Source: Candidatus Thorarchaeota archaeon
GTDB taxonomy: Archaea; Asgardarchaeota; Thorarchaeia; Thorarchaeales; Thorarchaeaceae
Reading direction: 5' to 3'
NCBI GenBank assembly: GCA_016841005.1
Contig: JAEORG010000215.1
Location: 1-13,845, forward strand
DNA: 13,845 bases
Each line of letters opens with the position of its first letter. Position 1 is the first letter of the stretch. The notes below the pieces were generated by a model. It saw only the letters and a list, made by a program, of their open reading frames with translations. It was not told the origin of the DNA and searched no databases. This document shows, one piece after another, positions 2,197 through 13,845 of this stretch. The position numbers and the translations under genes are program-made.

Positions 2197-2290
2197 GGTC
2201 TCTAAATCACAAGTTGTTTTTCTAGAATCATTTTTCAAACACCAAATCAAAATGATATTAAGGGAAACATGTCGGGCATGCTTGACCCCA

Positions 2291-2298
2291 TATGTAGA
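2291..2298 (+). promoter_or_regulatory. PadR half-site overlapping a ribosome binding site
   Basis: TATGTAGA repeats one arm of operator 2 exactly. It runs into the GAGGT Shine-Dalgarno (2297-2301) of the ECF-S-like gene. It may be an extra weak PadR contact or a roadblock, or a chance match of eight bases. Confidence 0.35.
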
Positions 2299-2308
2299 GG
2301 TAGCGATA

Positions 2309-3091
2309 ATGAGTGATACTAACAAGATAGATCTCACATATGTTGAGGGTCGGACAGATACGAAATTTTGGGCTATTGGAGCAATTTTGGCTGCATTATA
2401 CGGAGTTGGTTCATTAATTCCAGTTAGTGGATTCATTATTGGTGGTGGGATTGCTGCGAATATCAGTTTCACATTACTAGTTGCACCACTCTTTGGGATA
2501 TTACTTGGTCCATGGCGTGGAGGTGCATTTGGTCTTGTAGGTGGACTGATTGCAATGTTACTGGGTGGATCTGGAGGTCTATTCCTTGCAATTCCATTCC
2601 TATTCTTATCACCAGCAATCTCTGGGTTTCTCACAGGATTATGTACAACTTCGCAAGTACGTGGAAAATGGGTACCAGCTGCTGGCATAACAGCACTATA
2701 TCTCTGGGCTATAATGGCATTGTACTTGATAGTAAACGGTCAAGCATGGTGGTTTATGGCATATTATGCTCTGGCAATGGTTGTTACCTTTGGTCTTCAA
2801 TTGACCTATTCAACACTTGACTTTGAGAAAGTAAAGGAAAATAAGATTTGGACTCTAATTCCATATCTTATCATTGGAACGGTCACAGATTTCTCCATGA
2901 TGACTATGGGAGCAGTATACATTTTCCAGATTCCAGCAGTAGTGTTTGGTTTTGTCATCTTCCCTGCGATGTTAATTGAACGAACTGCAGCAATCGCAGT
3001 CAGTCTCATCATAGTGATTGCAGTTGTGAAGGCATTTCCTGATATCTGGGGAGTTGCAACAGAACAGAAGGTCATTGAAGATTCTCTATGA
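2309..3091 (+). CDS. ECF-transporter S-component-like membrane protein
   Basis: The 260-aa protein has about six hydrophobic segments (near 21-45, 51-68, 73-110, 122-142, 146-165, 180-240). The N-terminal half reads like substrate-binding S components of energy-coupling-factor importers: AALYGVGSLIPV, then LLVAPLFGILLGPWRGGAFG, then GGLIAMLLGG. S components capture vitamins or metals and are powered by separate T and A subunits, none of which is encoded here. The substrate cannot be read from sequence. Start 2309 has a GAGGT ribosome binding site 7 bases upstream; the alternative ATG at 2252 would add 19 polar and Cys-rich residues before MSDTNK and is less likely. It is divergent from PadR across two operators, so PadR very likely controls it. 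Its end overlaps the 3' end of the peptidase gene by 20 bases. Confidence 0.72.
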   Translation: MSDTNKIDLTYVEGRTDTKFWAIGAILAALYGVGSLIPVSGFIIGGGIAANISFTLLVAPLFGILLGPWRGGAFGLVGGLIAMLLGGSGGLFLAIPFLFLSPAISGFLTGLCTTSQVRGKWVPAAGITALYLWAIMALYLIVNGQAWWFMAYYALAMVVTFGLQLTYSTLDFEKVKENKIWTLIPYLIIGTVTDFSMMTMGAVYIFQIPAVVFGFVIFPAMLIERTAAIAVSLIIVIAVVKAFPDIWGVATEQKVIEDSL

Positions 3092-3680
3092 TTATTCGCA
3101 AAGCATCAACAATAACACCGAGAGGCATTGTTGCAAGAGTCATCGTGTCCTTCTCTATTGCTTGTTCTGGCAACGGAGGTATATGTACAAAGAGTCCCTC
3201 TGTACTTACTTCTTTCAAGTTAATCCAGTGTAGGAGATTAAACAGAATCCAATTACAACCATAAGTTCCCGCATGATAACTCACATCTGCTGGTATCCCT
3301 TTTGTTCTGAGGGCTTCAACAAGTGGATGTACATCTATTGTTGAGAAGTACGCTGCAGGAGCTTCATCAATTATTTTGTACGATGATGGTGTGTTTCCAT
3401 AATTATCCTCACGTCTAGTATTTTGTATATTCAACCCAACTTGTTCAATCGTGATGGCACTTCGATTTGCCTGACCGCAACAGAGAACATGTGAAGGTTT
3501 GTAGTTGTGGATTGCTTTTTTGAGGATGTCTGCCGCATTACTGTAATCAAGAGGAAGTACTTCTCCTACAATCTTAGATCCTGCTATGATATTTCCTTTG
3601 AGGAGTTTAACTAGCTCTTCAGAGGGATTAATTGAATATCCGTCGAAGGGTTCGAATCCTGTTAGTAGAATCGAATTCAT
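3072..3680 (-). CDS. pcp: Pyrrolidone-carboxylate (pyroglutamyl) peptidase, family C15
   Basis: This enzyme removes N-terminal pyroglutamate from peptides and acts in the cytoplasm. All family marks are present in 202 aa (usual length about 200-220): LLTGFEPFDG at 5-14 with NPS at 18-20, catalytic Glu79 in ITIEQVGLN, catalytic Cys142 in HAGTYGCN and catalytic His166 in FVHIPPLPEQ. The start at 3680 puts the first strand two residues from the N-terminus, as in relatives, and has GGAAG 8 bases upstream. An ATG at 3701 overlaps the exporter's TGA as ATGA and would add seven residues (MSVEEYN), so translational coupling to the upstream exporter gene is likely with either start. The pair suggests peptide or amino-acid salvage linked to export. 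Confidence 0.93.
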   Translation of the reverse strand: MNSILLTGFEPFDGYSINPSEELVKLLKGNIIAGSKIVGEVLPLDYSNAADILKKAIHNYKPSHVLCCGQANRSAITIEQVGLNIQNTRREDNYGNTPSSYKIIDEAPAAYFSTIDVHPLVEALRTKGIPADVSYHAGTYGCNWILFNLLHWINLKEVSTEGLFVHIPPLPEQAIEKDTMTLATMPLGVIVDALRIIIENLQ

Positions 3681-3697
3681 GTTATATTCTTCCACGC

Positions 3698-4357
3698 TCA
3701 TATGATCACACTTAGGATGAAGTATCCACCTAGTGCAATTTGAACGACACCAATTATGATATTGACCCAATTTAAACTTCCATAATCTGCTTTCTTCGCT
3801 GTAGCGTCAGCTCCCACGGAGAGAAACGCACCATAGATGAAATCAGTAGAAATGTGCGTAAAATACAGAAGAACACCTGCAAGGAAAACTGTTCCGACGC
3901 CCACTTGGAGTTCTCCGATGAGAAGAGATATGCTACTCAGACCTAAACCAGCCCACCAGATCAAGAAATAAGGTGAGAGAATGCTTACTGCCGCACCTTG
4001 AGTTGTTGCCTCAACAACACTCGATACTGAAGGCTCTTCTTTGACCTCATTTTCTGCGAATGATGATTTATGACGATAGTCCTTCAGTGCGAGGAATCCG
4101 AAAGCAATGATCACAATTCCTCCAAGCCCAACCATCAAGCTAATCATGAATGAATCAAAGGCGAATAGTTCAGCTCCAATAATAATTAACACAACTATTC
4201 CAAGTTCAACAATAGCATGACCAACCATGGGAAGAATTCCATGGAGACGACCATGTCTACTAGATTGCATTACAACTGCTGCAGATAATGGACCTGGTGC
4301 TAACGCTCCACTAAGAGAGGCGATGAACCAAATTGCTAAGATTTCTAAGATTCCCAT
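3698..4357 (-). CDS. LysE/RhtB-family exporter
   Basis: This 219-aa membrane protein has about six hydrophobic segments. It carries LysE-superfamily marks: SGALAPGPLS at 16-25, the GHAIVE box (46-51) after an amphipathic turn, and the SPYFLIWWAGLG motif (128-139) opening the second half. A charged cytoplasmic loop (about 91-119) splits the two halves. The family exports amino acids or related small metabolites by proton exchange; the substrate is not predictable here. It is the first gene of a two-gene leftward operon with pyroglutamyl peptidase. The start is preceded by GGTGCGAG about 6 bases upstream. An A/T-rich stretch near 4395-4415, the intergenic region shared with the DUF389 gene, may hold the promoter. 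Confidence 0.88.
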   Translation of the reverse strand: MGILEILAIWFIASLSGALAPGPLSAAVVMQSSRHGRLHGILPMVGHAIVELGIVVLIIIGAELFAFDSFMISLMVGLGGIVIIAFGFLALKDYRHKSSFAENEVKEEPSVSSVVEATTQGAAVSILSPYFLIWWAGLGLSSISLLIGELQVGVGTVFLAGVLLYFTHISTDFIYGAFLSVGADATAKKADYGSLNWVNIIIGVVQIALGGYFILSVII

Positions 4358-4471
4358 GATCTCGCACCGATTTTACATTACGAAACAGTTGAAATTGCAA
4401 AAAAGTATAATGCTAGCTACATCTGGATATGCCTCTCGGTAATATCTGTATTACAAAGTCGAGTTTTGGCT

Positions 4472-4480
4472 AAATTAAAA
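4472..4480 (+). promoter_or_regulatory. TATA-like box for the DUF389 gene
   Basis: AAATTAAAA lies about 54-62 bp upstream of the GTG at 4534, so a start near 4505 would give a short leader. It is the best TATA candidate in the intergenic stretch; the assignment is by spacing and composition only. Confidence 0.35.
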
Positions 4481-4533
4481 ACCCTTAATAGACCTCTGAA
4501 AAAAGTCGGTGTAATTCTACGGATGGTAACTCT

Positions 4534-5670
4534 GTGAAGCAAGTACAGATCACTGTTCCTTATGAGAAGACTGAAACAGTCGAAGATTTTCTTGTTGATG
4601 TTCTTGATATCAAGAATGTCGTAAGATTCACAGCTGACAATGCACACTTACTCCAATTCAGAATTCCCGATGATGCAGTTACTGATACTATGGAAGGTCT
4701 CAAAAGTAGAGGAGTAGGTGTGGAATTTGGTTTCATAGATATTCTTGATCTCAAAGCGTCTTTACCTAGGGAGGCAGAGGAAACAAGCGAGAAGAAACTA
4801 CAACGAGAGGCAGACTTAGCTGTTGAAGAGATTTATGAGAACGTGAAGAAATCAGCATCACTAAGCTTTGATTTCATTGCTTTTGTCATCTTTGCAGCTG
4901 TCATGGCAGGATTCGGTTTAATCCAGAATAACGTCACAATTATTGTCGCCTCTATGTTGCTATCACCCTTAATGGGACCTATGTTGGGTGTAGCGGTTGG
5001 ACATGTTGTAGGAGATAACAAACTCTTCATCAAAGGTACTATGAATGAGCTAATAGCATTAGGACTCTCCTTTGCCGTAGGTGCAATAATGGCAATCATG
5101 ATGCCTGTATTATATCCAGGTACTGGAGATTTCATGACAGTAATTGAAGGAGAGTGGGATGCAACGAGATGGACCTATGTAGTAATTAATGAAATTACTC
5201 GAAGAGGGACTTTCTTCTCAGTCTTAGATATTGGGATTGCAGTGTTTTCAGGGACAGCCATAGCAGTTTCTGTAACAAAGGGAGATATGTCAACCCTTGT
5301 AGGAGTAGCCATATCTGCGGCTCTAATGCCCCCAGCAGTGAACGTTGGTATGATGATCACCTTAGGTTTAATTCACAGCTCGCTTGCAGGTATTCAGATT
5401 GGTGTTGGGTCCTTAATCTTACTCACGATGAACATTATCCTCATCGACATCGCAGCTGTAATAATGTTCAGAATCAAGAAGTTAGGTATCATTGAGGATA
5501 AATCCGCAACTTGGACGGCAGTAACACAATATCGACAAAAAAGATCAGCAAGCCTTTATCATCGTCCAAGTTCTGAGGCAGCAACATTCACTCCAGCTCC
5601 GACTCCTAAAACTGATGCATCTTCTGAAGTAAAAGAACCTAATAATGGAGATTCGACTAACAATCGATAG
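4534..5670 (+). CDS. DUF389 (TIGR00341-type) membrane protein
   Basis: The 378-aa protein begins with a soluble alpha/beta domain (1-75) and a charged helix (76-108). About six membrane segments follow, near 112-131, 134-156, 172-193, 228-248, 254-279 and 287-312. Family marks are IIVASMLLSPLMGPMLG (136-152) and VGVAISAALMPPAVNVG (256-272). The tail from about 325 is polar and Pro/Ser/Thr-rich. The biochemical role of DUF389 proteins is not established to my knowledge, so none is assigned. It uses a GTG start with GGATGGT 6 bases before it; no in-frame ATG is nearby. It is monocistronic or leads into the small gene at 5764 after a 93-base gap. Confidence 0.9.
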   Translation: MKQVQITVPYEKTETVEDFLVDVLDIKNVVRFTADNAHLLQFRIPDDAVTDTMEGLKSRGVGVEFGFIDILDLKASLPREAEETSEKKLQREADLAVEEIYENVKKSASLSFDFIAFVIFAAVMAGFGLIQNNVTIIVASMLLSPLMGPMLGVAVGHVVGDNKLFIKGTMNELIALGLSFAVGAIMAIMMPVLYPGTGDFMTVIEGEWDATRWTYVVINEITRRGTFFSVLDIGIAVFSGTAIAVSVTKGDMSTLVGVAISAALMPPAVNVGMMITLGLIHSSLAGIQIGVGSLILLTMNIILIDIAAVIMFRIKKLGIIEDKSATWTAVTQYRQKRSASLYHRPSSEAATFTPAPTPKTDASSEVKEPNNGDSTNNR

Positions 5671-5763
5671 CATTGCGTCAACTACTGGGTAATACTCCAG
5701 TGACACATCCAGTTATAGTGGAGAGAGGGTTAACTTTCTTAGATTAGTTAGAGAGTGTAGCAT

Positions 5764-6084
5764 ATGACAGAGGATCCTATTCTGAAGAATAAGTTGTTCA
5801 AGGGCTTGACTGAACATGATATACTAACTTGGGAAGAGGAGAAGATGCGATATCAAAGGAGAATGGGAAAGAAGGTTACAGACTTAGCCTTTCTTAGACA
5901 TCTTCTCATGCATGCCTCAAGACCGGTTATTACCACAAAGGATGGGGTTTCTTCTGGATTTATCACAGGGCGCGGACCAATCTATGAGAAAGGAGACACA
6001 CTATTAGAAAGATATAGAGCGAAAAGAGAGGACATACATCCCGAGCTTGTAGAGAAAAAGAAACTCTCTACCCTTAGAACATGA
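5764..6084 (+). CDS. Hypothetical 106-aa basic protein
   Basis: I do not recognise this protein. It is charged and mostly helical at the N-terminus (TWEEEKMRYQRRMGKK, 22-37). A Gly-containing middle follows (DGVSSGFITGRGPIYEKGD, 60-78), then a Lys/Glu/Arg-rich end. There is no membrane segment, Cys cluster or known motif. Codon choice matches its neighbours and there is no competing frame. The start is ATG with a GAGAGTG purine run 6 bases upstream. It follows the DUF389 gene on the same strand and is followed by a TATA box for the next unit, so it probably ends one transcript. Confidence 0.65.
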   Translation: MTEDPILKNKLFKGLTEHDILTWEEEKMRYQRRMGKKVTDLAFLRHLLMHASRPVITTKDGVSSGFITGRGPIYEKGDTLLERYRAKREDIHPELVEKKKLSTLRT

Positions 6085-6387: not shown

Positions 6388-7116
6388 TTGGATATTAGTA
6401 AAAGGATACCGGATAAACAAACACAGCATGAAAAGGAACAACCAGACAATCTTGACCTAGTGTTCAAGGCACTTGGGCATTCTACAAGAAGAAGGATTCT
6501 AAGATTACTTACTCAGAAGCCACGATATCCATATGAATTAAGTAAGATACTCGGATTAACCTCACGAGTTGTAATTAAACATCTCGAGGTACTTCAAAAC
6601 GTAGGAATTGTTTCTCGAGAAGTTGGAGAAAGTGATCTCGGTCCTGAGCGGACATATTATCGATTAAACCAGGGATTTGGTCTATCTACAACTATCCTTC
6701 CTAATTCATTTATTGTTCAAATGATGCCTCAGGTAACTAGAATAAAAGTACACCATGGATTTGTTTTTCCAACAGAACGGTCAGATGTTAGAGCGGTAAA
6801 ACAACTCTTGAGAGAGCTAACAAAGGTAAACAAGCGGATATCTGAAATACAGGACGAGAGCATGGAGCTGGCTCATATACGAGGGCAAATCATACAGAGA
6901 GTAGAAGTAATAATGCAGAAATATAATTGGGATGAAGAGAGTTGCAGAGCTGTTCGTTCGAGACTAAATCCAATCAGAATAGAAGGTAGCCTTCACAAAC
7001 AAAAATCACCTCAAGACCTCATGGAAGAGGCACTCGACATATTTGAAAGACTTCTGGGTAGTCCAAGGAAGCAGAAAGATGATGATCAAGAAGTAACTCT
7101 TGATATCGAGGATTGA
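6388..7116 (+). CDS. ArsR-type winged-helix transcriptional regulator
   Basis: The 242-aa protein has an ArsR-like winged helix in residues 21-95. It includes LVFKALGHSTRRRILRLL, a recognition region LGLTSRVVIKHLEVLQNVG, and a wing ending in RTYYRLNQ. A beta segment (99-127) and a long coiled-coil-like helix (133-180) follow, then an acidic tail. No Cys pair typical of metal-sensing ArsR proteins is seen; a lone Cys186 is present. The start is TTG with GGGAGG (6377-6382) five bases upstream. The frame is open further 5' but lacks any ATG, GTG or TTG there. It is probably co-transcribed with the 50-aa ORF and autoregulated through the repeats at 6121-6181. Its stop abuts the next gene's stop with no gap. 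Confidence 0.85.
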   Translation: MDISKRIPDKQTQHEKEQPDNLDLVFKALGHSTRRRILRLLTQKPRYPYELSKILGLTSRVVIKHLEVLQNVGIVSREVGESDLGPERTYYRLNQGFGLSTTILPNSFIVQMMPQVTRIKVHHGFVFPTERSDVRAVKQLLRELTKVNKRISEIQDESMELAHIRGQIIQRVEVIMQKYNWDEESCRAVRSRLNPIRIEGSLHKQKSPQDLMEEALDIFERLLGSPRKQKDDDQEVTLDIED

Positions 7117-7800
7117 TTACCAATTTAGCTCTATTTTCCATTCAGTTCGATCTGAACCGAGCATACTCGGGACATATTCTATTGGGTTATACGGTAATTC
7201 AACACCAGTAGATTTCTTGATGGTCAGATAGTTCTTACCTTGAGCTGTTGTCAGTGTGATTATCCCCTGAGCCAGCGAGAAGAGCTGGTTTATTGTAACA
7301 GGATCTGCTGTATCTGCATGTATGAGGTAGAATTCTACAGATCCAACTTTAATACTCTCCTCAACGCTTTCCTTGAAGAATTGCACAACATCCCTGGCAG
7401 AGAAATCAATCAATAGAGGTGTCAATGCCTCAAATGTGACAACTCGAGGGTGTATCACATTTCGTAAACTTCTCATCATGATATTGATTTCATGCAGGTG
7501 TGGTGAACATGTATGATTTCCAATGGTTTCTTGGCCATAGTTTACCTCCAAGATGTGATATCCGTCATCCTGTTTCTTGGCCATATCCTGCATCATCTGA
7601 CGATTACGAGCTTCAGTGACTACATTGAGTGTTTTCATTTCATGCGTGATTGCTTTTCTTGCCAACGTAGTCATAAAGAGGTCATAATGGCTCTCTTGAG
7701 CAGCCATAACCAAGAAAACATAGCCTCCAGGGGGTTTAGTAAGTAGACTATCTATGACATTGGGACGAATGTAATTGTTATTTTGTCCTCCACTGACCAT
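7117..7800 (-). CDS. Degenerate RecA/KaiC-fold protein without a P-loop
   Basis: The 227-aa protein appears to keep the KaiC-like strand order. It has a first hydrophobic strand GGYVFLVMAA (25-34) where a P-loop would follow but reads QESHYDLFMTT. A Walker-B-like strand comes next with a Ser/Thr-rich turn (RVVTFEALTPLLIDFS, 119-134), then strands VEFYLIHAD (155-163) and GIITLTTAQG (179-188). Glu124 stands where Walker B Asp is expected. It is therefore probably a non-catalytic partner of the ATPases beside it. ATG 7800 is preceded by GAGAGGT about 9 bases upstream. A GTG at 7818 overlapping the receiver's TGA is an alternative start. It is last in the run TPR, two-domain KaiC, receiver, this gene. 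The fold call is inference from spacing and neighbours. Confidence 0.68.
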   Translation of the reverse strand: MVSGGQNNNYIRPNVIDSLLTKPPGGYVFLVMAAQESHYDLFMTTLARKAITHEMKTLNVVTEARNRQMMQDMAKKQDDGYHILEVNYGQETIGNHTCSPHLHEINIMMRSLRNVIHPRVVTFEALTPLLIDFSARDVVQFFKESVEESIKVGSVEFYLIHADTADPVTINQLFSLAQGIITLTTAQGKNYLTIKKSTGVELPYNPIEYVPSMLGSDRTEWKIELNW

Positions 7801-7814
7801 GATAGACTTACCTC

Positions 7815-8198
7815 TCACTCCTCTATACCCAAATGTTTCCTAATGGTAGCAACCAATGCCCTCCCTGAAAAGGGCTTTACAATATATTCATCAGCACCAA
7901 CCTCTTTTCCTCTCTCAATGTCCTTGCTCAACCCCTTAGCTGTAAACATGAGAATTGGTACTGACTTGAATGAATCTTCACTCTTCAGTTGTTCACAGAC
8001 CTCAAATCCATCAAGCTTTGGTAGCATCACATCCAAAAGAATTAGATCTGGACTTTCAGAGTGCGCAAGTTCTAATGCAGCTTCTCCGTCGAATGCGCAG
8101 ACTACATCAAATCCATGTCGTTCAAGAAATTTCTTTGCCAATTCGGTCGTTATTTCTTCATCATCCACAACCAGAATCTTTGGTTTATTCTCAGTCAT
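7815..8198 (-). CDS. Stand-alone CheY-like receiver protein
   Basis: This 127-aa protein is a complete receiver domain with no output domain. It has the acidic pair Asp12-Asp13 (VVDDEE), phosphoacceptor Asp56 (LILLDVMLP), Thr86 (MFTAKG) and Lys108 (IVKPF), so it should accept phosphate. The start has GAGTGAT five bases upstream. It lies 11 bases after the KaiC-like gene and touches the degenerate RecA gene, so the three are surely one operon. No kinase is encoded nearby. Its likely role is to pass a phosphorylation signal to the RecA-type proteins by binding. Confidence 0.93.
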   Translation of the reverse strand: MTENKPKILVVDDEEITTELAKKFLERHGFDVVCAFDGEAALELAHSESPDLILLDVMLPKLDGFEVCEQLKSEDSFKSVPILMFTAKGLSKDIERGKEVGADEYIVKPFSGRALVATIRKHLGIEE

Positions 8199-8209
8199 AA
8201 TCTATCACT

Positions 8210-9628
8210 CTATACAATTGGCATTAGTTCGTAATCTAGGAATCCTCCTGAAAGAATCGGTCTGACTGCAAGAAAGTTGGTTCTTGGGTTCTCTCCAGAA
8301 ACTCCCATGACACCACAGATCTCCTGAACTCTGAGATGTACATGATGAGATATTGACTCACTCTTTACCTCCTGTTGTCTGCTCAGAATAGTCAATGTAG
8401 TTCGTTTTGCTCGAGGAAGTGATGCTGAGATTTCTGCAACCATGCCCCTTACCTCAGTGGGTCCGTACATATTCTCTAAAGTGTCAAGCGAGAATAGTTC
8501 AGAAACTTCATGGTTGAATTTTCGTTCCAACTCACTTGATTCATATCGAATTTCCTGCAAAGTTTTCCTAGGATCTGCATCAAGTCCTCTGACATTTTCG
8601 TATTGTCCTGGAGCATGCCTACCAAAGAACACGACTTGTGAATCAATTTTTTTCTTATCTACAAAGTGTGCAAGGCTCTCTGTGAAGAACTCTGGAGACC
8701 AACCTTCAGGAAGAATAATTACCGCAGGGCGTCCAAGTCCTAGGTGGTTAGAAAGGAATGGAATGTAAATTGTTTCTAGATAGGGAACACCCAGATTATC
8801 AACTTCAATAAGGCTGATTTGCCCTTTCATGAACCCTCCACCTAATATAACATCCAGACTAAGATTTCCAGTTGACATTCTATCAGGTGATGGGTCATGA
8901 ATAGGGTCTCGACCTACTGTTATTGCAGGATACTGATGCACATACCATGGTATGTATGTGAACCTTCCTTCATGCAGTGTAAACAGAAACGAATCCTGTT
9001 TAATCAAGTGGGCACGCATTTTCTCTAATACAATCTGTCTATACATCCGTTGATTTTCACGGATTTTCTCTAGTGTAACTACACCATCAGCTGAATGGTG
9101 TAATGTATCATTCATGTTAGAGTCCCATTGGCCTTCAGTAACAAGAATGAGTTTTCTACCCTCATTCCTCGCAGCATGTATCAATGCTTGTTGAATTTCA
9201 TATCGATTCTCAGGATTGATTGGTTCAATGAAATCAGTCCAAGAATCAATGATAACCACATCTGCGCTTCCTTGATCTTCAGAGGCTCCAACTAGGCGAG
9301 ATAGTTGGGTCTCGAGACTTGATTCATGAGATATTTTCTCTACTAATGGCCTCCAGTACTGTGTCAGGACATGTCTGTCACCCCAGTGAGGAACAGCATC
9401 GGATAATGACATGACTGTAGCCATATGATTCTCAGTGCTTGTAATTATCATGAAGGAGTTCTCAAATGTTCTGAAGATTTCTTGAACGAATAGCGATTTA
9501 CCTGTACCGGGTTTTCCAGTAACAACGAGTACAAATCCAGTCCTAGAAGAAAGAGCTTCTCTAATACTGGGTGGTACTCCGCCAATTTCGTTCATGCGGT
9601 CTAGCCTCTTGCGGGGACTATTTTGCAT
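8210..9628 (-). CDS. Two-domain KaiC-like ATPase with inactive second domain
   Basis: This 472-aa protein is built of two RecA-type domains. Domain 1 (about 10-225) has an intact Walker A GKPGTGKS (38-45) and Walker B VVIIDSW with Asp128, so it should bind and hydrolyse ATP. Domain 2 (about 250-472) keeps the KaiC entry signature STGNLSLDVILGGGFMKG (252-269). Its P-loop place reads IEVDNLGVPY (274-283), with no Gly-Lys-Thr/Ser, so it cannot bind ATP in the normal way. That pattern, LGGG followed by LIE-D, also recalls Elp4 of Elongator, a P-loop-less RecA fold. The start has AGGTGG three bases upstream, buried in a hairpin. It heads a tight operon with a receiver and a degenerate RecA protein. 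KaiC-like proteins of archaea are thought to act as signalling hubs. Confidence 0.85.
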   Translation of the reverse strand: MQNSPRKRLDRMNEIGGVPPSIREALSSRTGFVLVVTGKPGTGKSLFVQEIFRTFENSFMIITSTENHMATVMSLSDAVPHWGDRHVLTQYWRPLVEKISHESSLETQLSRLVGASEDQGSADVVIIDSWTDFIEPINPENRYEIQQALIHAARNEGRKLILVTEGQWDSNMNDTLHHSADGVVTLEKIRENQRMYRQIVLEKMRAHLIKQDSFLFTLHEGRFTYIPWYVHQYPAITVGRDPIHDPSPDRMSTGNLSLDVILGGGFMKGQISLIEVDNLGVPYLETIYIPFLSNHLGLGRPAVIILPEGWSPEFFTESLAHFVDKKKIDSQVVFFGRHAPGQYENVRGLDADPRKTLQEIRYESSELERKFNHEVSELFSLDTLENMYGPTEVRGMVAEISASLPRAKRTTLTILSRQQEVKSESISHHVHLRVQEICGVMGVSGENPRTNFLAVRPILSGGFLDYELMPIV

Positions 9629-9629
9629 T

Positions 9630-9655
9630 ACCCACCTTATTAAGATAAGTGGGGT
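9630..9655 (-). promoter_or_regulatory. Hairpin hiding the ribosome binding site of the KaiC-like operon
   Basis: Read leftward, ACCCCACTTAT (9655-9645) pairs with ATAAGGTGGGT (9640-9630) around the loop CTTA. The pairing has one bulged base on each side. The 3' arm holds the AGGTGG Shine-Dalgarno and ends one base before the ATG at 9628. Closed, the hairpin should block translation; a ligand, protein or temperature change could open it. It could instead be a DNA operator or a weak terminator for the TPR transcript. Confidence 0.5.
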
Positions 9656-9705
9656 TTAATCCATCTGTAAAAGATCAATGAGCAAGAGAATCAAATCTAC
9701 TAATA

Positions 9706-11286
9706 TCACTCATCAAGTTTGTCTAAGAATTCCAAAAGATGTGGGCAGACAGAAGCTTGCCAATAGAGATTCCCCATGCATCCTTTCCTCGCAGATTTCC
9801 GCTCAAATCTACAATCATAGTTTTTCTCACGATCATACAAGACACAAAGATCACTTTCCATAGCAGGATCTTCGTAAATCATTGCTCTAACATCTCGCAT
9901 TCTTTTAGTTCCAGATTCGTTTTCCCATATGGCTTTTTGACCTAGGATAGCTTTTACTTCCTCAATCATTCCTTTCGGAACAGTTTTTTCCAATTCCCAG
10001 TTTGTGACTATTTCACTAACAACAGAGTGAAAATGAACTAGAGGATATCCATACTCAACTGCTGCTTTATTCATCTCGCGATATATTTTGAGAGCTTTGT
10101 CGTACTCTTGTTGCATGAAATATGCATCAGCAATCAGGAATGGAATAAAGACCATAAGGTCTCTCATACCTGAACATTCAGCAACTTCTAGACTCTCTTT
10201 GTAGAGTTTTATGGCATCTTCAAACTCTCCCCTTCGTAGAAGAATGTCGCCGATGTTAATCTTAGAAGTGGATATCCCTCGCATGTATTCAGCTTCTTGA
10301 CTTATCTCTAGTGCTCGTCTATTGTAAATCTCCATTTGGTTGAGTTGTTCGAGGTCACGATCCACCTCACCTACATTAATCAGTGTTTTAGCTAATCCAA
10401 CCTGATCGTTCAGTTGCTGTTGTATAACTAAGAGTTCCTCAAATTGATCCCTGGCATCCTGACTCTCTCCCCTATCCATATGGATAACTCCAACAAGATT
10501 CCTGGACCTCGATACACCATGAAGGTATCCCATTAGTTCATATTGTTGCAGCGCTGATTTTGCTAATTCAAGCGCGCGATCATATTCATGCGAATCCTCA
10601 AGAATTAAAGCCCTATAATAGCTGATATCTGTGAGAGCAAGTTGGTGATCTAAAATACGGGCGGTTTCATCAGCAGAATCAAGTAACACATGTGCTTCAT
10701 CGCGATTTCTTGCCTGTAAATCAATAGGAGCCATTAGAATTCTTGTCCTTAGTAATGCGGCTTGAACACGATTACGAATCTTCTCGTTTTTAACAGTCGC
10801 TTTCGTCACCTTATCGATGCTTTCTGAAGCGATTGTTTTTGCCCTTTCTGCATATCCTAAGTCAACAAGGATTGAAGCTAACTGACCTGATAGTTCAGCA
10901 AACACAACATAGTCCTTTGCTTGCCATGCTTGATTTACATAAGTCTGTAGATTATTTAGCCAGCGTGGATCAAGACTTTGTCTGCAATATGCAGCTGCAG
11001 CATAACCTTTGCATGCAATGTTTGTGGTATGCTTGGCAAGAATCTGATTATATCCGTAGAGACCTCTCAGGAACGATGCTTTAGCACATAATGTAAGAAA
11101 CCCTTCACTTCTGTTCCTCCATTCTCCACTTCCAACATATTCCGTCACAACATCAGTGAAATGCATGAATCTATCTTTACCAGAGCGAATTCCTGCAGAT
11201 ACTCGAGTTGCTATATCAGATAATTCAGATTGCTCTAGATTGTTCTCGAACATAGCAAATTCCGGGATTACAGGACTCTCTGACAA
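9706..11286 (-). CDS. TPR-repeat protein with a C-terminal four-cysteine tail
   Basis: The 526-aa protein is a helical repeat solenoid. Clear TPR units lie near residues 121-160, 215-252, 257-292, 297-332, 337-372 and 377-412, with motifs such as GEFEDAIKLYKESLEVAE and EYDKALKIYREMNKAA. TPR arrays bind partner proteins and often scaffold signalling complexes. After residue 470 come Cys481, Cys492, Cys503 and Cys514, exactly 11 residues apart, then His516; this may be a zinc or Fe-S site. The start is taken as TTG 11286 with GAGAGG 9 bases upstream; an internal ATG at 11253 (MFENN) is possible but has a poor ribosome binding site. It precedes the two-domain KaiC gene by 77 bases on the same strand and is divergent from the single-domain KaiC gene. 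It probably links these ATPases to receivers. Confidence 0.85.
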   Translation of the reverse strand: MSESPVIPEFAMFENNLEQSELSDIATRVSAGIRSGKDRFMHFTDVVTEYVGSGEWRNRSEGFLTLCAKASFLRGLYGYNQILAKHTTNIACKGYAAAAYCRQSLDPRWLNNLQTYVNQAWQAKDYVVFAELSGQLASILVDLGYAERAKTIASESIDKVTKATVKNEKIRNRVQAALLRTRILMAPIDLQARNRDEAHVLLDSADETARILDHQLALTDISYYRALILEDSHEYDRALELAKSALQQYELMGYLHGVSRSRNLVGVIHMDRGESQDARDQFEELLVIQQQLNDQVGLAKTLINVGEVDRDLEQLNQMEIYNRRALEISQEAEYMRGISTSKINIGDILLRRGEFEDAIKLYKESLEVAECSGMRDLMVFIPFLIADAYFMQQEYDKALKIYREMNKAAVEYGYPLVHFHSVVSEIVTNWELEKTVPKGMIEEVKAILGQKAIWENESGTKRMRDVRAMIYEDPAMESDLCVLYDREKNYDCRFERKSARKGCMGNLYWQASVCPHLLEFLDKLDE

Positions 11287-11378
11287 AGTACTCGTCCTCT
11301 CTCTCTTTCTTGAGTCTAAATGCGTTTCGCTGATGGACCTAAAAGTCGCATCAAAAGGATTCTAGTGATTCTCTCCGC

Positions 11379-11388
11379 AAATAAAAAT
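11379..11388 (+). promoter_or_regulatory. TATA-like box for the single-domain KaiC gene
   Basis: AAATAAAAAT lies 56-65 bp before ATG 11444, giving a likely start near 11412 and a leader of about 30 bases. The 157-bp divergent spacer must also hold the TPR gene's promoter, but no separate box is clear. A short direct repeat, ATTGAT-AAC-ATTGAT, lies at about 11409-11423. Confidence 0.4.
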
Positions 11389-11443
11389 CTACGCAAACAA
11401 AGGTTATTATTGATAACATTGATTGTGCCCATGAGAGGATGCA

Positions 11444-12199
11444 ATGTCTAAAGGTAGAGTGAGCAGTGGTGTTGAAGGATTTGACCAATTGTTAAATGGA
11501 GGGTATATACAGGGTCGTTCGATGCTTCTCGCAGGTGGCCCTGGAACAGGTAAGAGTATTCTCACTTGGCACTTTCTTTTCGATGGGATTGAAAAAGGAG
11601 AAAGTGTTATTCTTCTCTCTCTTGATGAATCATCGGAAATTCTTATTGAAGATATGAAAACATTTGGATGGAATCCGGAATCTTCAATCGAATCACAAAA
11701 ATTGACGATACTGAGTGGAACACTTAGATTAGTACCTACCGAAACAGGATATGATTATGTTATTGGGTTCGATCATCCTCTGTTCAGAGAAAAACCATTT
11801 ACAGTACCTAGGCTTGCTGACCTAGTCAAGAAACGTGCAAAAGAAACAAATGCAAGCAGAATAGTTGTAGATGGCCTTGGACCTCTACTCGAATTAGCTG
11901 GAAACCGTTTTGAAGTTCGGCAGATGGTATATGGATTTATGAAAGAATTAGTAGAACAGAAAGCCACAGTCTTATTGACACATGAATTAAGATCGCTTAC
12001 AGGTGCTCAAAATGATGAGATGCCATATTTCATTTCAGATGGTGTTGTAAAATTAGATATGGTCTACACAACCGGCGATTATGTTCGAACAATGAGAATT
12101 GTCAAGCTCCGGGGGACAAATCACGTGATGCGACCCGCAATGTTTAGAATTGAGGATAAAGGTGTAGTTGTTTATCCTGATGCAAGACTACCTGAATAG
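11444..12199 (+). CDS. Single-domain KaiC-like ATPase
   Basis: The 251-aa protein is one complete KaiC/RadA-type RecA domain. It opens with the family entry motif SSGVEGFDQLLNGGYIQG (7-24), then Walker A GGPGTGKS (31-38). An acidic DESSE follows strand 2 (61-65), where KaiC has its catalytic glutamate pair. Walker B is RIVVDGL with Asp143, and a late THELRS strand end also fits. It should bind and hydrolyse ATP, probably as a ring-forming oligomer. The start is fixed by GAGAGGAT a few bases before ATG. It is divergent from the TPR gene and its stop abuts the receiver gene's stop. A regulatory rather than DNA-repair role is inferred from the receivers around it; it may bind the TPR protein or the receivers. 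Confidence 0.9.
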   Translation: MSKGRVSSGVEGFDQLLNGGYIQGRSMLLAGGPGTGKSILTWHFLFDGIEKGESVILLSLDESSEILIEDMKTFGWNPESSIESQKLTILSGTLRLVPTETGYDYVIGFDHPLFREKPFTVPRLADLVKKRAKETNASRIVVDGLGPLLELAGNRFEVRQMVYGFMKELVEQKATVLLTHELRSLTGAQNDEMPYFISDGVVKLDMVYTTGDYVRTMRIVKLRGTNHVMRPAMFRIEDKGVVVYPDARLPE

Positions 12200-12565
12200 T
12201 CAAAGTATAGGTTCAACTTTTTTCATCATATCTAGCAAATCATACATGGAAAATGGTTTTTGTAGAAATGCTCTTGCCCCAGCTACTAGAGCCTGATCTC
12301 CAAATCCCTCAACAATATCAGCAACAGCAATAATTGATGTATCCGAGTCTATGTCAAGAATTTTCTCAATAAGTCGCATCCTTTCATCATCAGGGAGAAG
12401 TAAGTCTAAAACAATGATAGATATCTTAGTTGAACTGCAAATAGCGAGTAGTTCCTCCGGACTTTCTGGTTCACCAATTACTAGATACCCAGCTTCTTCT
12501 ACAGCCATTCGTACAAGCGATCTCAGAAGAGGGACATCTCCCGCAATCACTACTTTCAATAACAT
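12200..12565 (-). CDS. Atypical stand-alone receiver domain
   Basis: The 121-aa protein has a receiver fold with the expected phosphoacceptor Asp54 (IIVLDLLLP) and Lys103 (LQKPF). Two conserved features are altered. The N-terminal acidic pair is reduced to a single Asp10 (VIAGDVP), and the Thr/Ser after strand 4 is replaced in AVADI, with Val81 in that place. Magnesium binding and phospho-switching may therefore be weak. The listed ATG sits directly against GAGGT with no spacer. A TTG two codons later (12559) has ideal spacing and would give MKVVIAGD, a usual receiver N-terminus, so that may be the true start. It is 44 bases downstream of the next receiver on the same strand and is likely co-transcribed. 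Confidence 0.85.
   Translation of the reverse strand: MLLKVVIAGDVPLLRSLVRMAVEEAGYLVIGEPESPEELLAICSSTKISIIVLDLLLPDDERMRLIEKILDIDSDTSIIAVADIVEGFGDQALVAGARAFLQKPFSMYDLLDMMKKVEPIL
12218..12223 (+). terminator. U-tract that may end the single-domain KaiC transcript
   Basis: Six T lie 19 bases after the KaiC stop, inside the 3' end of the opposing receiver gene. Archaeal polymerase can stop at such U-tracts without a hairpin. A short T run is common by chance in this composition. Confidence 0.25.
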
Positions 12566-12609
12566 ACCTCATTTTCGGATGCTCGTCCAATGTATGAATG
12601 ACAGAGAGA

Positions 12610-12972
12610 TTAGTTTGTCACTGCAGTTTCGACTAAGTCTAGCATATGTCTGATAGTAACAGGCTTTAAACCAAAACTAATGGCTCCATTTTTCATCGCC
12701 TGCTCTCGAACATTAGCGTCGGCACTGATGAAAACTATTTTCGCTGAGGGTTCAATGCCTAGGATTTCTTTCATGGCCTCTAGACCATCTTTATTGGGCA
12801 TCCTGTGGTCAAGAATGACAACATCAGGTTTAGGAATCATATCAGAGTACTTTTGAACTGCTTCTTCACCGTCAAAAGCATCAGCAACGACCTCATGCCC
12901 CTTAATCGCAAATACATCCTTGTATAATCGATGAAGGATCGGTTCGTCGTCGATAATGAAGATTGTTACCAT
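12610..12972 (-). CDS. Stand-alone CheY-like receiver protein
   Basis: This 120-aa protein is a full, canonical receiver: acidic pair Asp8-Asp9 (FIIDDEP), phosphoacceptor Asp55 (VVILDHRMP), Ser83 (FISADA) and Lys103 (GLKPV). No output domain is attached. The reading frame opens at a GTG (13011), but that adds a basic His/Arg-rich 13-residue lead. The ATG at 12972 begins directly at the first beta strand and has GGGGA 9 bases upstream, so I take it. It is first of two receivers read leftward toward the KaiC-like gene. The second receiver is unusual and this one normal, which suggests a division between a phosphorylated input protein and a binding partner. Confidence 0.9.
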   Translation of the reverse strand: MVTIFIIDDEPILHRLYKDVFAIKGHEVVADAFDGEEAVQKYSDMIPKPDVVILDHRMPNKDGLEAMKEILGIEPSAKIVFISADANVREQAMKNGAISFGLKPVTIRHMLDLVETAVTN

Positions 12973-13845
12973 TCTGTTGCGTCCCCTATGACCTCTGTGT
13001 TCATTTCTCACATTAGTATTGCGCGCTGAGCATCTATTAGTACTTGAAGAAGTACCAGTTAAATTTAGTGTGTCCCAGTCGCTTTGTACCTAAATCGATG
13101 TATGGTATAAAAATGAAACTGGATTGTATTCTTTAACCATTTACTTCTAGATTTTTCACTCTCATTTTACTCTTCTATAGTTTAGTTCTTGGGTTAAAAA
13201 CCACAGTGTCGATAAATGGTAAGAGTTCTCTATTTTTCGAATTGTAATTACCTTAATTTTGGATAAATATATAATAATTAGCTATTCTTTTATTCTATAT
13301 TCCTAATATTATTTTATATTAGTTACTATCTAAAGACAGCATTTATTTCGCTACCGATTTAAGTAATCGCAACTTCATAGGCCACATTTCAATTATCCCT
13401 CATAATATTCAAAAATGCTGTATTCCAAGGAATATATCTCGAAAAATATTGTATTCGCTAATTGAGTACATATAACTATCTGATCTCAATAGACTGAATT
13501 ATTTCATACTCAATTACTGTGTACTACTACCTTTTTTCGAGGATAATCAGGGTCATTTAGGTAAAAAATAGATGGATAGACCATATGATACGAAAAGTGT
13601 GTATGAGTAATCTCTGCAATCGAATTATCGTTATGTAAATGGTGATCCATGTTAGGATATGATATATCAAATATCAGAAAATGACAGATATAATATAACA
13701 TTTAATGAACAATTATTTATTATTAGTAAATGTATGATTTGGTATAATACTGTACCATATAAAGCATTTTAATTTAACTAAAATGATAATCAATATAAAT
13801 AGAAGAAAGTAAAAATTGAGGGATAGAAATAATACCTATAATAGA
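12973..13845. other. A+T-rich region without a convincing gene
   Basis: Nothing here reads as a protein. The longest open frame (63 codons, 13701-13510 on the minus strand) has an erratic His/Tyr/Asn-rich translation and no ribosome binding site. The first 100 bases must hold the promoter of the receiver operon, possibly CTAAATTTAACTGG read leftward near 13070-13057. Structures seen are the hairpin GTACTT-GAAG-AAGTAC (13040-13055), the inverted repeat TATTCC-AA-GGAATA (13421-13434), perfect 10-bp arms TAATTGAGTA (13459-13468) and TACTCAATTA (13507-13516), and TGGTA/TACCA (13740-13757). No tRNA-like cloverleaf was recognised. Confidence 0.5.
13106..13113 (+). promoter_or_regulatory. Strong TATA-like box without a following gene
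   Basis: TATAAAAA in the context TGGTATAAAAATG is one of the clearest archaeal-type TATA boxes in the window when read rightward. No reading frame of useful length follows within several hundred bases. It could drive a non-coding RNA or be chance in A+T-rich DNA. Confidence 0.3.

Follow-up and report, generated by a model that had tools for sequence, protein, structure and literature searches.

This study concerns a cluster of seven adjacent genes in the window, i.e., the whole 13,845-nt stretch of contig JAEORG010000215.1 (assembly GCA_016841005.1) of a Candidatus Thorarchaeota archaeon. The genes encode three RecA/KaiC-type proteins, three stand-alone receivers (RRa, RRb and RRc) and one tetratricopeptide repeat (TPR) protein. 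The RecA/KaiC-type proteins, called the ATPase set below, are a KaiC, a GvpD-like two-domain protein and a pseudo-KaiC. We lean slightly towards reading the cluster as two nested layers, i.e., a core of the TPR protein with RRc and RRb, and the ATPase set with RRa gating, rather than as one seven-part machine. An earlier note on this DNA, made from the sequence alone, had described the seven genes, and they are real: all are open and in place, and the family matches agree.

The evidence for this reading comes from relatives. The 47 genomes of the class were searched with four components (pseudo-KaiC, TPR, GvpD-like and KaiC), and 40 stretches were fetched from them, in which alone the receivers were sought. 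Counting the window, there are 20 set-bearing loci. Of these, 13 show the whole run RRc-RRb-KaiC-TPR-GvpD-like-RRa-pseudo-KaiC, two of them with an interrupted KaiC; six more loci are cut by contig ends, and the last, L122, has no recognised RRb. The order is thus kept across Thorarchaeota, which bears out the conserved synteny that the earlier note had proposed to look for and removes its worry that the genes might be scattered in relatives. KaiC was found at E 1e-40 or better in 17 of the 47 genomes, pseudo-KaiC in 18 and the GvpD-like gene in 19, although one of these (G020) holds only a 138-residue piece at a contig end. A GvpD-like tally of 21 was set aside, the weak matches in G032 (a remnant) and G047 (E 6e-12, part of another 484-aa open reading frame, ORF) not being counted. 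All three ATPase-type genes occur in 16 genomes (in places as fragments at contig ends, and the KaiC of G016 contains a stop), part of the set in three (G001, G008 and G026, where the missing genes would fall beyond the contig end), and none of the three in 28. The TPR gene accompanies the set in 18 of 19 genomes; in the exception, G026, the contig breaks off within the GvpD-like gene. Of the 28 set-less genomes, 17 have the TPR gene at full length (E 1e-160 or better).

Gene order makes this joint absence informative. KaiC lies on the opposite side of the TPR gene from the other two set genes, and RRa lies between the latter, so that a colinear locus needs two or three deletions to lose the set; the argument is weaker in the rearranged loci L094, L096 and L097. 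Scars of such losses were found at the expected places in L099 (remnants of all three set genes, 80, 32 and 29 residues), L107 (KaiC, 26 residues, and pseudo-KaiC, 29) and L110 (KaiC, 52 residues). In L096, 55 residues weakly resemble pseudo-KaiC (E 4e-4), but they overlap with the winged-helix gene described below and were not counted as a scar. On a tree of TPR, RRc and RRb (37 rows, 20 with the set and 17 without), at least eight changes of state are required, five of them forced by starred branches, compared with 12.6 on average for shuffled labels; it is a quick tree, in which seven rows have long end branches. The joint absence of three non-contiguous genes, with the TPR gene (and RRa in half of the readable loci) kept between them, suggests that the three proteins probably work together. 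It is very improbable that the cluster is a mere conserved neighbourhood in slowly rearranging genomes, without functional linkage: the flanking gene families (window 2252–6084) likewise hold their order at many loci, which shows that the whole region is stable, but stability leaves unexplained both this joint absence around intervening genes that stay and the co-localisation of the orthologues in other lineages described below.

The core layer is defined by what remains. RRc and RRb stand beside the TPR gene in 16 of the 17 set-less loci; at the 17th, L120, an assembly gap adjoins the TPR gene and neither receiver was found, and in L116 such a gap conceals part of RRc. The TPR protein and the two receivers thus appear to have a job of their own. 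RRc is the most conserved protein of the cluster, its relatives being 73–92% identical to the window copy, and its acid pair, phospho-Asp and Lys are present in all aligned rows covering those positions. All 31 RRb rows keep the phospho-Asp and the Lys; at the first acid-pair position, each of the 25 covering rows has G, C, S or N. All three proteins are stand-alone (CheY-like) receivers, with a single PF00072 domain, the phospho-Asp and the Lys, RRb lacking the first acid-pair residue. The TPR protein ends in the motif C481-x10-C492-x10-C503-x10-C514, whose four cysteines are invariant in 37 of 37 rows; this domain was found in 37 of the 47 class genomes and probably binds a metal or an Fe–S cluster. 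Beyond RRc in relatives, ten genes were inspected, and no histidine kinase was recognised among them. HATPase_c matches occur in 47 of 47 class genomes, a family that also covers gyrase-type proteins. With anti-phage models, the only matches were a weak one and a generic TPR one.

RRa, which has a complete receiver active site, behaves differently from the other two receivers. It is present in 18 of 18 readable set-bearing loci vs. 8 of 16 readable set-less loci (Fisher p 7e-4, uncorrected for kinship); in the 17 set-less loci it is intact in seven, cut by a contig end in one (L098), truncated in one (L106), not found in seven and unreadable in one (L095). This distribution suggests that RRa probably works mainly with the ATPase set. 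A doubtful alternative, though one with a real claim, is that the ATPase set works alone and is merely located beside the receivers, which would form a separate pathway with the TPR protein. The 17 genomes with the TPR gene and without the set fit such a separation, as does the set found without a nearby receiver in more distant Asgard archaea; against it stand the interleaved order kept class-wide, with RRa between two set members and the TPR gene between two others, and the fact that RRa follows the set.

Relatives outside the class give further evidence for the set. Among 227 genomes searched, the pseudo-KaiC profile found relatives at E 0.001 or better in four (G124, G126, G127 and G060), and a merged profile adds weaker far relatives. 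Database matches place the G126 protein in Freyarchaeota and the G127 protein in Helarchaeota, with close kin named Jordarchaeaceae. The Thorarchaeota and far families match profile to profile with a probability of 99.2% (E 5e-20, 193 columns). KaiC lies less than 2.5 kb from the pseudo-KaiC relative in G124, G126 and G127. Pseudo-KaiC, a Ras-family GTPase, a Longin-like protein (below the cut-off), KaiC and a GvpD-like gene stand within 5.5 kb in G126; one contig of G124 carries KaiC, a Longin-type protein, a Ras-family GTPase and a pseudo-KaiC that is broken across two reading frames, and another contig pseudo-KaiC with two GvpD-like genes; in G127, KaiC is convergent with pseudo-KaiC and preceded by an Arf/Rag-type GTPase. 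In G125, the contig with KaiC carries three GvpD-like genes and lacks pseudo-KaiC, and G060 has a weak pseudo-KaiC relative with neither KaiC nor a GvpD-like gene beside it. In G124, G125, G126 and G127, a single KaiC each scores 185–196 bits against the Thorarchaeota profile (the next at most 129), and it is the one at the locus. In a tree of 29 rows, these four KaiCs group with 12 Thorarchaeota module KaiCs in a single clade (98/98*), apart from 13 paralogues, which were taken from 29 other profile matches; the Thorarchaeota stem is long, at 3.4 changes per column.

These findings sort the proposals of the earlier note, in which receivers paired with ATPases tune ring assembly on a TPR scaffold. 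That the three ATPase-type proteins belong together is upheld by the joint absence with its scars and by the co-localised far orthologues, and RRa follows the set more closely than RRb and RRc do; a single seven-protein assembly on the TPR scaffold fits poorly with the TPR genes that persist with their two receivers where the set is absent.

Several observations weigh against our two-layer reading. First, the class genomes are drafts without completeness values, and the set-less loci were picked via the TPR gene, so that the statement that the TPR gene stays is valid for 17 of 28 set-less genomes; the remaining 11 comprise two with nothing more than a C-terminal piece of TPR and nine in which the four-cysteine domain had no match. 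Second, the changes of state on the tree of TPR, RRc and RRb do not separate gain from loss; loss is documented by scars at three loci, among them L107 and L110, which belong to a single clade. Third, KaiC is interrupted in G016 (locus L113, one TAG) and in contig C166 of G002 (locus L092, three TGA) while the GvpD-like and pseudo-KaiC genes are whole, which suggests that KaiC may be dispensable first; the interrupted copies are possibly decay intermediates or assembly error. Fourth, eight set-less loci retain RRa (one cut by a contig end), and RRa has moved in L094, L096 and L097. Finally, receivers were sought in the far loci and none was found, meaning that the ATPase set is older than the receiver link or has been re-wired.

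G002 has two cluster copies (L091 and L092) with both flanks doubled, for which a mixed bin seems more likely than duplication.

KaiC-like ATPases are reportedly archaeal signalling hubs with iKaiC (inactivated KaiC) domains, a description said to go back to Makarova and colleagues in 2017. In the cluster, KaiC has the intact P-loop GGPGTGKS and scores 171 bits against PF06745 (cut-off 26.6), the GvpD-like protein 42.5, and pseudo-KaiC falls below the cut-off. KaiC has one domain only and scores 92.6 bits against the 546 of the circadian circ_KaiC equivalog. In the N-terminal half of the GvpD-like protein the P-loop, Glu66 and Asp128 are invariant in 19 rows, and the C-terminal half has no P-loop. 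Like haloarchaeal GvpD, it matches the GvpD P-loop domain PF07088 (34.8 bits, cut-off 24), and its length is close to that of archaeal proteins named GvpD (466–476 aa); unlike GvpD, it scores 12.8 bits against basic region 2 (PF20440, GvpD_bR2; cut-off 27.9), and it is 25–29% identical to four GvpD-named matches. The folds of the module proteins are predicted ones. For pseudo-KaiC a KaiC/RecA fold is predicted, and the GxxxxGK[ST] motif is absent from 14 of 14 aligned members and from four far relatives, so that, on its model, it is classed as an iKaiC, i.e., an inactivated KaiC-like domain. The best Foldseek match of this model is ArlH/FlaH, from which pseudo-KaiC differs in having no P-loop; its profile gave no meaningful PDB match by sequence, and neither KaiC (56.7 bits) nor the GvpD-like protein (30.9) reaches the 215 bits of the NCBIfam ArlH equivalog, to which pseudo-KaiC has no match.

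The working that we infer, covering complex formation, phosphorylation, receiver binding, metal and output, is as follows. Histidine kinases encoded elsewhere would phosphorylate the receivers. RRc, RRb and the four-cysteine TPR protein would make up a core able to exist without the ATPases. The active KaiC, the GvpD-like protein and pseudo-KaiC would probably form a mixed active/inactive KaiC-type assembly. Elongator Elp456 is among the closest known systems; KaiC chains align equally well or better, and a mixed ring is here an inference. Phosphorylated RRa would bind an inactive RecA domain and thereby set the ATPase activity or the assembly of the set, dead RecA domains serving as natural docking sites for the receiver; fusions of receivers with inactivated KaiC are described for Methanosarcinaceae in PMC5847659. 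On this view, the set would switch in an ATP-dependent manner, and a partner protein would read its state.

The output may be a change in such a partner, and a candidate adjoins the cluster. The earlier note had seen no DNA-binding output, but it overlooked an ArsR-type winged-helix gene that is convergent with the cluster and abuts pseudo-KaiC stop to stop. The family occurs in 28 of the 40 fetched stretches, and PMC5847659 describes receiver genes that adjoin ArsR-type genes in thaumarchaea. By analogy with the action of GvpD on GvpE, the GvpD-like ATPase and its partners might repress or destabilise this regulator. As an account of the module this is improbable: the PF07088 match, the frequency of the winged-helix family and the requirement of the GvpD Walker motif for breakdown of the activator GvpE (stated in PMC4390858) speak for it, but the winged-helix gene is present in set-less loci too, and GvpD_bR2 is below the cut-off.

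The far loci also suggest another input. Of 12 far pseudo-KaiC loci examined, six (L146, L147 and L153–L156) have a Ras-family gene (PF00071) immediately adjacent, and the other six (L144, L145, L148 and L157–L159) do not. A Longin-type protein accompanies the Ras-type GTPase in two far loci. This neighbourhood first seemed decisive and was weakened by the 6-of-12 count and by the density of GTPases: the 13 far stretches hold 12 further GTPase-like ORFs, none touching the pseudo-KaiC gene, so that Ras adjacency is only moderate evidence. In addition, L153–L156 hold weaker relatives with longer proteins (422–443 aa, merged-profile E 3e-23 to 1e-27), which may be non-orthologous, as may the proteins of L157 and L158. 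We therefore propose only tentatively, as something short of probable, that KaiC, the GvpD-like protein and pseudo-KaiC are an ancient Asgard signalling core with exchangeable input, i.e., receivers in Thorarchaeota vs. Ras-type GTPases in Freyarchaeota/Jordarchaeaceae and Helarchaeota. If this is true, bacterial-type two-component signalling and eukaryote-type small-GTPase signalling converge on one effector, which would bridge the two worlds directly at the genetic level.

L157 (G125) and L158 (G124) contain tandem runs of four proteins of 422–427 aa with weak pseudo-KaiC similarity, and the one scanned has a V4R domain. Ras-type genes also occur in the class itself. In five set-less loci (L094, L096, L097, L118 and L120), representing two or three lineages, a Ras-type GTPase gene lies between the winged-helix gene and a gene of the family of a 106-aa window protein (5764–6084, + strand); PF00071 was matched at E about 1e-45 in the four scanned. 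A 427–435-aa ORF of unassigned type accompanies it in four of the five; the 435-aa ORF was suspected to be a Longin protein, and BLASTP with the L146 Longin gave no similarity. The other 35 fetched class stretches gave no GTPase with the queries used.

Among the closest known systems are the KaiC hub/iKaiC systems, in which active and inactivated KaiC-type proteins are likewise linked with receiver domains (Galperin et al. 2018, PMC5847659, as far as its consulted text goes). We note two differences. First, the iKaiC systems given in that text are narrow-range fusions (iKaiC-REC, REC-DUF835 and MEDS-REC), whereas in Thorarchaeota the proteins are separate genes in a conserved cluster. Second, the Thorarchaeota cluster includes two further kinds of protein, the GvpD-like one with its two domains and the TPR protein with its four cysteines. 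A literature search, limited in its coverage of subscription journals, found no description of this gene set, nothing joining Asgard archaea, KaiC and small GTPases, and nothing joining Thorarchaeota with GvpD; for Thorarchaeota with KaiC, only the 2018 census turned up. According to that census, most receiver-only regulators (the examples being thaumarchaeal) have no conserved gene neighbourhood, so that functions are not inferable. The three stand-alone receivers here have a conserved neighbourhood and a short, testable list of partners, in which the loss pattern singles out RRa and the three KaiC-type proteins as the first candidates for joint study.

Table 1. Features of the cluster and its flanks in window coordinates
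Feature	Position	Strand	Assignment
RRc	12610..12972	-	stand-alone receiver, PF00072 E 4e-20
RRb	12200..12565	-	stand-alone receiver, PF00072 E 1e-14
KaiC-like one-domain ATPase	11444..12199	+	PF06745 E 3e-50
TPR protein with C-terminal four-Cys motif	9706..11286	-	TPR families
GvpD-like two-domain RecA protein	8210..9595	-	PF06745, PF07088
RRa	7815..8198	-	stand-alone receiver, PF00072 E 7e-30
pseudo-KaiC	7117..7800	-	predicted KaiC/FlaH fold; no Pfam family
ArsR-type winged-helix protein	6388..7116	+	HTH_5 E 5e-9
102-nt element	13504..13605	-	non-coding; conserved in relatives

Two starts in Table 1 were set by homology, that of the GvpD-like gene at 9595 (the ORF opens at 9628) and that of pseudo-KaiC at 7800 (the ORF opens at 7818); the two proteins are 97% and 99% identical, respectively, to proteins of Candidatus Thorarchaeota metagenome-assembled genomes. 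KaiC is divergent from the TPR gene, and its stop abuts that of RRb.

Upstream of RRc lies a stretch without other ORFs of at least 150 aa (window 12973–13845), which extends for at least 870 nt in 20 of 25 loci measured; RRa lies inside it in L094 and L097. About 530 nt upstream of RRc, this stretch contains a 102-nt element whose ends form the inverted repeat CATACTCA/TGAGTATG, with one mismatch in the window copy. Of 31 upstream regions, 22 carry a match to the element at E 0.01 or better, a count that includes the five seeds. There were 27 matches at first, from which L100, L111, L115, L118 and L124 (E at least 4) were removed as chance. In the alignment, which leaves out the cut copy of L112, its length is 102 nt in 20 of 21 rows and 101 in L099. 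When five genomes were searched, each module copy of G002 and G038 gave one match, and G016 gave none although its locus L113 carries the element. As a structured RNA it fared poorly: RNAalifold on the 21 rows gave 6 pairs, no compensatory change and −1.1 kcal/mol, and the antisense strand nothing beyond the helix of its ends (−4.5). No Rfam family reached its gathering score in nine sources, and the upstream region gave just four matches, with E at least 2. A small protein was also rejected, as changes are nearly equal at the codon positions (2385/2322/2459), without codon periodicity. The element is left as a DNA-level element of unassigned role.

On the other flank, the 106-aa protein, which has no Pfam family, is found near the cluster in 27 of the 40 fetched stretches at 65–84% identity.

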